Source: Halorubrum vacuolatum
GTDB taxonomy: Archaea > Halobacteriota > Halobacteria > Halobacteriales > Haloferacaceae
Direction: 5' to 3'
DNA: 64,000 nt
Assembly: GCF_900188065.1 (NCBI RefSeq)
Contig: NZ_FZNQ01000003.1
Location: 124,001 to 188,000 of the forward strand
In this document: piece by piece, positions 21,026-46,937 of the stretch
Position numbering within the stretch: the first letter of the stretch is position 1
How the letters are laid out: each line of letters opens with the position of its first letter
Program-made: the position numbers and the translations under genes
The notes under the pieces: generated by a model
Seen by the model: only the letters and a program-made list of their open reading frames with translations
Told to the model about the DNA's origin: nothing
Database searches by the model: none

Positions 21026-21379
21026 ATGGAACTCGTTTTCGTCGCCGCCGCGGGGGCCGTCGTGCTTCTCGGGTTGCTCCTCGTCGTCCGTCGACTCCGG
21101 GGACCCTCAGAGTCGGCCAAACGGTCGAAAAAAGCCCACGAGGCGGCACAGGAACGCGACCCGCCCGTGGAGATCGGTGAGACGTATACGTTCGGGGTGA
21201 TCGAACTCACCGACCATCACTCGGGCAAGGAGGTCGCCGTCGGAAAGGTCGAGGGGTTCGTCGTCTTCGTCGAGGGAATCCCAAACGACATCGGCGAGGG
21301 CGACGTGATCCGCGCGAAGGTGCTCTCGTTCAACCAGGGGCGCACGTCGGCGGACGCGACGTTCGTCGAGCGGGGATGA
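21026..21379 (+). CDS. Membrane-anchored TRAM-domain protein
   Basis: 117 residues. One N-terminal transmembrane helix (VFVAAAGAVVLLGLLLVVRRL) and a basic/polar linker precede a TRAM domain of about 60 residues (PVEIGETYTFGVIELTDHHSGKEVAVGKVEGFVVFVEGIPNDIGEGDVIRAKVLS), a beta-barrel RNA-binding fold. Free archaeal TRAM proteins act as RNA chaperones; this one would sit at the inner membrane face. A TATA-like box for a downstream RNA begins only a few bases after its stop. Confidence 0.92.
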   Translation: MELVFVAAAGAVVLLGLLLVVRRLRGPSESAKRSKKAHEAAQERDPPVEIGETYTFGVIELTDHHSGKEVAVGKVEGFVVFVEGIPNDIGEGDVIRAKVLSFNQGRTSADATFVERG

Positions 21380-21382
21380 CGA

Positions 21383-21392
21383 TTATTTATAA
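21383..21392 (+). promoter_or_regulatory. TATA-like box before the hairpin-rich element
   Basis: ATTATTTATA (about 21382-21391) lies right after the TRAM stop. Transcription about 25 nt downstream would begin at about 21412, the first base of the first hairpin. Confidence 0.4.
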
Positions 21393-21410
21393 GCGATCGG
21401 ACGATACGGT

Positions 21411-21606
21411 GGCGCGCCCGGCGAGCGCCTTTTAAGGGCGTTCGCCGGAGCGCGAGGTCGTCGGATTACATCCGACGGCTTGGAAATCGGAGATTTCCAG
21501 TGGAGTTGGCGGTGGCGACCGTAGGGAGCCGCCGCCAACGAGGCTGGGGAGGCGTGAGGTGCGGTTGCGGTTGTATGCTGGAGGATACTCCATCTGTGTT
21601 CAGCAT
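21411..21606. ncRNA. Candidate structured RNA or mobile element: five consecutive hairpins
   Basis: Five near-perfect stem-loops follow one another with almost no gap. H1: 21413-21453, ~17-bp stem with loop TTTTAA and one bulge. H2: 21459-21477, 8 bp perfect, extendable to 10. H3: 21481-21499, 8 bp perfect with loop GGA. H4: 21506-21538, 11 bp with one G.U pair. H5: 21575-21606, 6-bp outer stem enclosing GGAG-GATA-CTCC. A TATA-like box precedes the element on the plus strand, and GTATTTAAATAC (about 21645-21656) could drive the minus strand instead. The region lies between convergent genes and has no credible coding frame. I do not recognise the RNA family; a transposable element is the alternative. 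Confidence 0.55.
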
Positions 21607-21644
21607 CGGTTCCCCTGACGTCGTTTATGAACTGCCGGCTGGTG

Positions 21645-21656
21645 TATTTAAATACC
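21645..21656 (-). promoter_or_regulatory. Palindromic TATA-like sequence GTATTTAAATAC
   Basis: It could serve as a promoter on either strand; on the minus strand transcription would start near 21620 and run through the hairpin array. Confidence 0.4.
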
Positions 21657-21697
21657 CAATTCCCGCTTGGTATCACCGTTAGTGGAGCCACTCCTCG

Positions 21698-23497
21698 CTA
21701 TTCGAGGTCCAACAACGACGCAACTTCATCGAGGTAGCCATCGTAGACATCGATGGCGGCCTCGATCGGCTCCGGTGAGGCCATATCGATGCCGGCGCGT
21801 TCGACGACCTCAAGCGGGTACGCCGACCCGCCCGCGCGTAGCATCTCCCGGTAGTCGGCGGCGGCCGTCTCGCCTTCGGCCTGGATCCGCTTCACGATGG
21901 CCGCGGCCGCCGAGATTCCGGTCGCGTACTGGTAGACGTAGAAGTTGTAATAGAAGTGCGGGATGCGCTGCCACTCGCGCTCAATGCCGCCGGTGAGTTC
22001 GGCGGGTTCGTAGTAGGCCCCCTTCAGCGCCGCGTACTGCTCGTCGAGGACGTCCGGGGTGAGCGCCTCGTCGTTTTCGATCCGCTCGTGGATCTCCGCC
22101 TCGAAGGCCGCGAACATCGTCTGGCGGAACAGCGTCGAGCGGAAGCGTTCGAGATACTCATCGAGCACGTGCGTCCGGAGCGTCTCGTCCTCGAGGTTCT
22201 CAAGCAGGTAGTGGGTGAGCAGCGTCTCGTTGACCGTGGAGGCGATCTCCGCGACGAAGATCTCATACCCCGCGTCGTGCCACGGCTGCGTCTCGCCGGC
22301 CAGCTCCGAGTGCATCGAGTGCCCGAGCTCGTGCGCGAGCGTGAACATCGAGGCGATGTCGTCCTGGTAGTTCATCATGATGAACGGCTGGGTGTCGTAG
22401 GTCCCCGAGGAGAACGCGCCGGAGCGCTTCCCGCGGTTCTCGTACACGTCGACCCACCGCGAGTGAAGCCCCTCGGCCATCCGGTCCTGATACGCCTCAC
22501 CGAGCGGCTCGACGGCCTCGATCACCCACTCGACGGCCTGATCGTACTCGACGTCCGGGCCCTGATCGCCGGTGAGCGACATGTAGAGGTCGTGGCTCTC
22601 CAGGGTGTCGACACCGAGCGCCCGCCGTTTCAACTCCGCGTGCCGGTGGAGCACGTCGAGGTTGTCGCCGACGGTGTCGACGAGGGTGTCGTACACCTCG
22701 ACGGGGACGTTCGGGCCGTGGAGGGCGGCCTCCCGGGCGGAGTCGTAGTCACGGAGTCGGGCGCTGATGACGTGCTCGCGCACCGCCTTCTCCAAGGCGG
22801 TCCCGACCGCGTTTCGCACCGACTCCCACTCCTCATAGAACGTCTCGTGGACGCGACGGCGGAACTCGCGGTCCGGGTCCGTCTGGAGCTTCGTGAAGTT
22901 CGCCTGGCTGATCTCGATCTCCTCGCCGTCGGGATCCTCCACGATCCCGTAGGTGAGGTCCGCGTTGGTGAGCATCGAGTAGATCTCGCTCGGCGCGCTC
23001 GTCACCTCCGAAAGCTCCGCGAGGACCGACTCCACCTCCGCCGAGCGCGTGTGCGGCGCGGCTCGGAGGACGTCATCGAGGTAGTGTTCGTACTCCGCGA
23101 GGCCGGGTTCCGACTCGACGAGCGCCTCCACGTCGGCCTCGCTCAGCGTCTGCAGCTCCGGTTCGAGATAGGAGATCGCGCTTGCGGCCTCCGAGCGGAG
23201 CGACGAGGCACGCGCCGACATCGCCTGGTACGTCTGGTTGCGGGTGTCCTCCGCGCTGCGAAGTTGGGCGTAGACGGCGACCTGGCCGATCTCGCGGAAC
23301 ACGGCCTCCCGAAGCTCCAGCAGCTCGAGCAGCGTTTCGGCATCCTCCGTGACGCGTCCCTCGTACGCCCGAAGCTCGTCCACTCGGGGGGCGACGGCCT
23401 CGAACGCCGCCTCCCATGCGTCGTCGTCCGCGAAGACGCTCGAGAGCGACCACGTATATTCGTCGTCTATCGCCGATCGCTCGGGAACTACACTCAT
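21698..23497 (-). CDS. pepF: Oligoendopeptidase F
   Basis: 599 residues, the usual length for M3B oligopeptidases. The zinc motif HELGHSMHSE is near residue 385, followed by the third-ligand glutamate region YEIFVAEIASTVNETLL; FMMNYQDDIASMFTLA precedes it. It cleaves short cytoplasmic peptides, probably in peptide recycling; an ABC peptide importer lies elsewhere in this window (50.6-56.8 kb). Monocistronic, divergent from the reductase-like gene. Confidence 0.96.
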   Translation of the reverse strand: MSVVPERSAIDDEYTWSLSSVFADDDAWEAAFEAVAPRVDELRAYEGRVTEDAETLLELLELREAVFREIGQVAVYAQLRSAEDTRNQTYQAMSARASSLRSEAASAISYLEPELQTLSEADVEALVESEPGLAEYEHYLDDVLRAAPHTRSAEVESVLAELSEVTSAPSEIYSMLTNADLTYGIVEDPDGEEIEISQANFTKLQTDPDREFRRRVHETFYEEWESVRNAVGTALEKAVREHVISARLRDYDSAREAALHGPNVPVEVYDTLVDTVGDNLDVLHRHAELKRRALGVDTLESHDLYMSLTGDQGPDVEYDQAVEWVIEAVEPLGEAYQDRMAEGLHSRWVDVYENRGKRSGAFSSGTYDTQPFIMMNYQDDIASMFTLAHELGHSMHSELAGETQPWHDAGYEIFVAEIASTVNETLLTHYLLENLEDETLRTHVLDEYLERFRSTLFRQTMFAAFEAEIHERIENDEALTPDVLDEQYAALKGAYYEPAELTGGIEREWQRIPHFYYNFYVYQYATGISAAAAIVKRIQAEGETAAADYREMLRAGGSAYPLEVVERAGIDMASPEPIEAAIDVYDGYLDEVASLLDLE

Positions 23498-46759: not shown

Positions 46760-46832
46760 GCCCGGATGGTGTAGTGGCCCATCATACGACCCTGTCACGG
46801 TCGTGACGCGGGTTCAAATCCCGCTCCGGGCG
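46760..46832 (+). tRNA. tRNA-Asp (GTC)
   Basis: 73 nt. The acceptor stem GCCCGGA pairs with TCCGGGC, discriminator base G. Anticodon loop CTGTCAC gives anticodon GTC for Asp. T loop GTTCAAATC is standard; no intron; CCA is not encoded. Confidence 0.95.
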
Positions 46833-46864: not shown

Positions 46865-46937
46865 GCCCGGATGGTGTAGTGGCCCATCATACGACCCTGT
46901 CACGGTCGTGACGCGGGTTCAAATCCCGCTCCGGGCG
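46865..46937 (+). tRNA. Second, identical tRNA-Asp (GTC)
   Basis: 73 nt, the same in every base as the first copy. The 32-nt spacer has the hairpin CCCCGA-TT-TCGGGG. A recent tandem duplication is likely. Confidence 0.95.

Follow-up and report, generated by a model that had tools for sequence, protein, structure and literature searches.

The question raised by the gap between the TRAM gene (stop codon at 21377-21379) and pepF (ending at 21698 on the opposite strand) of Halorubrum vacuolatum is what kind of element the series of hairpins located there represents. The original prediction, made from sequence alone within a window of 64,000 nt (the whole stretch of DNA analysed), described five stem-loops, at 21413-21453, 21459-21477, 21481-21499, 21506-21538, and 21575-21606; without a credible gene and with TATA-like boxes on both sides; and considered that array to be either a structured RNA not yet recognised or a mobile repeat without coding content.

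The hairpin array in the window

All five hairpins were confirmed at those positions. The + strand of the region folded at -154 kcal/mol versus -121.5 +/- 5.4 in 100 dinucleotide shuffles (z -6.07, with 0/100 as low), while the - strand gave a z of -4.2 against dinucleotide shuffles; those comparisons, together with the existence of a repeat family, rule out chance hairpins. The search for genes across the hairpin region found none that was credible, only low-quality overlapping ORFs, which result rules out a protein gene as the identity of the array and upholds the prediction on that point. The TATA-like boxes are likewise present on both sides, but their value as evidence for the array did not hold. 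The features of the locus are the following:

21386-21392, + strand: upstream TATA-like box TTTATAA, just past the TRAM stop codon (sequence)
21413-21454, + strand: stem P1/P2, the first predicted hairpin (fold, family-model alignment, covariation in the family)
21452-21457, + strand: 5' part of motif A, GCGAGG of GCGAGGGAG, interrupted here (comparison with other copies)
21459-21477, + strand: extra hairpin, the second predicted, an apparent insertion in motif A (missing there in the other copies examined)
21481-21499, + strand: extra hairpin, the third predicted, with apex AAATCGGAGATTT (apex recurring in two other copies)
21502-21505, + strand: 3' part of motif A, GGAG (sequence, comparison with other copies)
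21505-21539, + strand: stem P3, the fourth predicted hairpin (fold; the stem with most variation and covariation in the family)
21540-21559, + strand: motif B, GAGGCTGGGGAGG-CGT-GAGG (own-genome matches; invariant columns in 51 diverse copies)
21575-21606, + strand: fifth hairpin, specific to the window copy (fold; occupying the position of the 3' domain in many copies)
21624-21631: TATA-like box TTTATGAA, on the other side of the array (sequence)
21645-21654: TATA-like box TATTTAAATA, also on that other side (sequence)

The array is a divergent copy of a dispersed family, whose covariance model aligns 21409-21563 at 45.3 bits (E 8e-9), the sole credible match in the window. In this copy about 45 nt carrying the second and third hairpins (21459-21499) interrupt motif A, GCGAGGGAG, leaving GCGAGG on one side and GGAG on the other; by comparison with the other copies, this pair has the appearance of an insertion within the motif. 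Within 3 mismatches that double hairpin occurs in the own genome in this copy alone; its apex AAATCGGAGATTT recurs, however, in two further copies (L114 and L248), in paired hairpins that lie within the P4 domain. The P3 sequence GGCGACC...GGGAGCC is common to the window copy and to copies in genome G004, and the window copy's own site in the sister genome G268 holds a canonical copy of a different sequence type. The predicted unity of the five hairpins consequently failed, the second and third being apparently inserted and the fifth lying outside the shared core; and the prediction had omitted the conserved G-rich strand after the fourth stem (21540-21559), the very feature that exposes the family.

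Copy number and distribution of the family

When the element was searched against the own genome, further places were returned, most of them sharing the strand that follows the fourth hairpin. The 20-mer GAGGCTGGGGAGGCGTGAGG had 31 own-genome matches at no more than 3 mismatches, against 0 for the reversed control. Those copies have a common order—a stem starting with GGCGCG, GCGAGGGAG, a second stem, and the G-rich strand—in which the sequence of the stems varies from copy to copy while complementarity is kept.

A strict pattern had matches in 30 of 243 genomes from the order, these belonging to the window's genus (15/15 sampled), one related genus of the same family, and one genus of another family; in the named collection, the genera with the element are Halorubrum, Halorussus, Halobellus, and Haloprofundus. 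The covariance-model search uncovered related forms in additional genera, and a relaxed two-motif pattern built from those forms matched 67 of 146 genomes from the order, which represent 23 of 56 genera, with a maximum of 157 copies (G110) and 0 matches of the reversed pattern in every listed genome. Since genomes differ in copy number between 0 and 157, it is unlikely that any one copy is essential.

Rfam 15 (4227 covariance models) gave no family match for the element at the gathering score in the window, nor any match to it at E <= 1 in eleven loci with other copies, the only matches overall being to tRNA, to RNase P, and one chance hit; an RNA family of Rfam 15 as the identity of the array is thus ruled out. 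The matches included two tandem tRNA genes of equal score in the window (46760-46832 and 46865-46937) and, at locus L064, an archaeal RNase P RNA gene (1657-1969) close to one copy of the element. In the literature searched, the motif B strings led to four papers, of which none concerned archaea, and the motif C strings to no match. With nothing similar in either source, the family is apparently undescribed.

Conserved architecture and covariation

The conserved core consists of stem P1/P2, GCGAGGGA, stem P3, and GAGGCTGGGGAGGnnnGAGG, to which most Halorubrum copies add P4/P5. Motif B is nearly invariant except in its three middle bases. We evaluated covariation in P1/P2 and P3 on a sequence-only alignment of 51 diverse copies, where 81.2% of the cells pair versus 66.4% after shuffling, and where the covariation score is 0.342 as compared with 0.139 +/- 0.009 in the shuffled alignments and with no more than 0.115 when the partner strand is slid. 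For P4, in 93 copies, 93.8% is paired versus 76.5 +/- 0.8% shuffled. The criterion of a structured RNA that combines conserved secondary structure with covariation is therefore met. A single, non-conserved copy without covariation would have refuted the original prediction; instead, the copies are many—about 30 in the own genome—and conserved, their stems covary, Rfam, with which a comparison had been proposed, contains no match, and the pattern of filled and empty sites shows spread. Both halves of that prediction, the unrecognised structured RNA and the non-coding mobile repeat, thus appear to hold, in the absence of transcription data.

The borders of the element are sharp in two genera. 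Sixteen copies of G004 define a unit of about 265-280 nt, in which motif B is followed by a linker and then by a P5/P4 domain of the form C[AG]AAG-GGG-P4-GGG-CTT[TC]G, containing a GGG/GGG internal loop; in Halorussus P1 marks the beginning of the shared unit, whose 3' part occurs in two forms. In relatives other than Halorubrum, P3 frequently takes the shape of a ladder, with GA/GA between steps of 2 bp; in 32 hand-picked strings, 158 of 164 step pairs are complementary. The thermodynamic z-scores of those GA-rich forms are near zero and nearest-neighbour energies do not single the ladder out, so that the case for it rests on the pairing counts of a hand-picked sample.

Several further peculiarities of the copies deserve mention. 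The G-rich joints GAGGGA, GAGGCTGGGGAGG, AAGGGG, and GGGGCTT together supply at least four G-tracts with hairpins between them and might form the core of a quadruplex in molar potassium. Downstream of the core in two G004 copies (L264 and L267), and also in L180, tandem modules of about 60 nt recapitulate the element's 3' end (CGACTGGGGCTTCGGCGGT...), each module carrying a TATA-like box in some of the copies; and two own-genome copies (L003 and L032) carry, directly following motif B (at 30-110 nt after it), short tandem repeats of the type GCGGTGCGAAT in variable copy number. The apex of P3 in many Halorubrum copies is GCGAAGC, GCGGAGC, or GCGCAGC. Mini-hairpins of this kind are very stable as DNA, and such apices might hint at a single-stranded DNA form.

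The strand that folds

Internal G.T mismatches outnumber A.C mismatches by 30 to 7 in P3 (p 2e-4), by 47 to 29 in P2, and by 47 to 14 in P4. A double-stranded inverted repeat should lack such a bias; therefore, the + strand folds by itself, either as RNA or as single-stranded DNA, between which two forms the G.T excess cannot discriminate. A dispersed haloarchaeal family with a conserved single-strand fold is the best-supported reading of the locus.

Turnover of the stems and spread of the copies

We compared orthologous sites in 39 pairs of copies flanked on either side by homologous sequence, 36 of which pairs were measurable. In the 16 pairs with both flanks more than 84% identical, the median identity was 0.785 for P1/P2, 0.70 for P3, and 0.95 for motif B; P3 was nevertheless still a hairpin in nearly all of them. 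The stems are replaced as units, whether through exchange between copies or through rapid compensatory change, each being possible and the data deciding neither. As a separate observation, the P3 apex is inverted between an own-genome copy (L039, at C68:41522) and its G268 ortholog (L233), reading GAGCGGTGCC in the one and GGCACCGCTC in the other; similar flips distinguish L035 from L037 and L032 from L033, as if the arms recombined.

Copies also spread, since some sites are filled in one lineage and empty in others: the gap between aCPSF1 and mgsA—which we take to be the flanking genes, named from their translated ends—contains a copy in the own genome and in G268 and is empty in ten other Halorubrum genomes. 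One own-genome subfamily lies within longer units having the inverted ends GGCTCCGTTGAAATCC, one of which units, with borders GTATCGGT/GTATCGGC, shows a near-perfect 8-bp target duplication; two occurrences of TAGCTCAG flank the L032 copy. These border repeats, chosen after looking, resemble the duplications made by a transposase and might reflect one acting in trans. At one apparently identical locus, copies occur in two families (L140 and L266 in Halorubrum, L048 in Halorussus; flanks 66-79% identical), which site may be either very old or the target of repeated insertion.

Plasmids hold few copies (one in Halorubrum, for which at least 14 plasmid records exist), and none was present in the virus contigs and phage records searched, on which basis a phage or virus origin was rejected. 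A search for Y1 transposases found no match in G004, G033, G044, G136, or G161, each with at least 22 copies; G060 has ten matches and zero elements. Mobilisation by a resident Y1 transposase is thus not needed in those five genomes, while a past transposase is not excluded.

Comparison with known repeats and the selfish-repeat alternative

The closest parallels are the PATEs of Haloquadratum walsbyi, of which a Haloquadratum genome holds 177-194, without terminal repeats and with near-terminal palindromes that are reported as related to the ends of IS605-type transposons and that receive insertions of small mobile repeats (PMC3119063). Like PATEs, the element is haloarchaeal, multicopy, and devoid of protein, with palindromes near both ends, strain-specific insertions, and smaller repeats inserted in its palindromes; and the lack of terminal inverted repeats that characterises PATEs is met by the G004 and Halorussus copies. 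Unlike in PATEs, the sequence of the hairpins is almost unconstrained and the joints that connect them are invariant, and the element extends over the 23 genera counted above. REP/BIME sequences with REP-associated tyrosine transposases (PMC2817692) are comparable in abundance, the richest genomes carrying about 100 or more extragenic palindromic copies; the element, however, is longer and of several domains, and the five high-copy genomes lack a match to the expected Y1 transposase. The GGCTCCGTTGAAATCC-ended subfamily, with the near-perfect 8-bp duplication of one unit, recalls MITEs; in the copies of G004 and Halorussus no inverted ends were seen, and what is conserved is the folded core. 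Finally, conserved secondary structure with covariation is shared with the structured RNAs of Rfam 15, none of which families matches.

The main rival explanation is, then, that of a selfish, transposase-free repeat of the PATE/REP type, without a cellular role, whose hairpins would be required, in the form of folded single-stranded DNA, by a trans-acting enzyme. In its favour are the absence of a protein and, in the G004 and Halorussus sets, of terminal inverted repeats; the palindromes at both ends, with sharp borders; the aCPSF1-mgsA site, filled in the own genome and its sister and empty in the ten others; the insertion in the window copy, rather like the small mobile repeats entering PATE palindromes (PMC3119063); and the G.T excess, which fits single-stranded DNA as well. 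Against it stand the mismatch between Y1 transposases and elements, in both directions; the scarcity on plasmids and absence from the virus sets; the maintenance of pairing at orthologous sites after species divergence; and the circumstance that the invariant parts are the single-stranded joints rather than the hairpins. On balance we consider this explanation a serious one, though less likely than not.

Placement and expression signals

Neighbouring genes were called with a composition-based gene finder of our own. For 112 of 163 copies the nearest gene upstream shares the strand of the element, a preference for the downstream side of genes that could mean tolerance instead of function; in Halorussus that strand bias is absent (12 vs 16). 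The gaps between convergent genes, where the window copy also lies, hold 65 of the 163 copies versus about a quarter of ordinary neighbouring pairs. This excess would suit an element that ends transcription or insulates between convergent genes; yet 60% of the copies are outside such gaps, a T-run 3' of the element on its own strand is hardly ever present, and archaeal termination needs far less elaborate structure than the element's, so that we regard this explanation as very improbable.

In part of the Halorubrum copies, TATA-like boxes cluster above background at -16 to -24 and at -49 to -54 of P1; in 32 Halorussus copies there is no such clustering, with one box in the whole range of -60 to -10. 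Most copies lack a box at a suitable distance, and the boxes present are mostly too near P1 for a transcript that includes all of it. The TATA-like box as a family-wide promoter is accordingly unsupported, and so is an independent RNA with a T-run terminator. A multicopy family of small-RNA genes, each with its own promoter and acting in trans, could account for the fixed distances of the boxes where they do occur, for the single folded strand, and for the conserved single-stranded G-rich joint, which might serve in pairing or binding. The boxes, however, are missing from most copies and from Halorussus, and at about 16-24 nt from P1 would mostly place the start inside P1; the rarity of T-runs after the element argues against an independently terminated RNA; and free-standing genes would not need the sense bias behind other genes. 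We therefore consider this possibility unlikely.

A proposed structured RNA element spread as a non-autonomous repeat

The reading that we favour, while granting that it might as easily prove wrong as right, is that of a structured RNA element spread as a non-autonomous repeat, its transcription being inferred without expression data. RNA is slightly preferred over single-stranded DNA for three reasons: pairing persists in place across species, almost every copy is chromosomal, and the bias towards a sense position downstream of genes points to read-through transcripts. Under this favoured reading, the + strand architecture of P1/P2, joint A (GAGGGA), P3, joint B (GAGGCUGGGGAGGnnnGAGG), and, for the majority of Halorubrum copies, P4/P5 with its GGG/GGG internal loop would be that of an RNA. 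This RNA would mostly arise when the transcript of the upstream gene extends beyond its 3' end, some copies being read instead from a nearby promoter. The helices would be a scaffold that presents the invariant G-rich joints to a shared partner, which may be a protein or else a G-quadruplex promoted by molar potassium, with an effect on the 3'-end formation or the stability of the transcript; the elements would multiply as non-autonomous repeats, some within the longer inverted-repeat-ended units of the own genome. A bolder version, possible and no more than that, with both transcription and role inferred, is a new haloarchaeal class of structured RNA with up to about 150 copies per chromosome and acting on many transcript ends, in which fast-changing helices, in wider relatives partly the ladder of 2-bp steps with tandem G.A pairs between them, might hold G-rich joints in a perhaps K+-stabilised G-quadruplex.

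A folded element with tens to more than 100 copies in about half of the sampled haloarchaeal genomes, and with clear covariation, thus seems to be missing from Rfam and from the literature searched. Its natural compensatory variants are ready material for tests of function, and it raises the question of why the stems turn over faster than the flanking genes while the pairing and the G-rich joints stay fixed. Either outcome matters: the family may be a widespread RNA regulator, or it may be an extensive class of archaeal repeats that depend on a folded strand for their spread.
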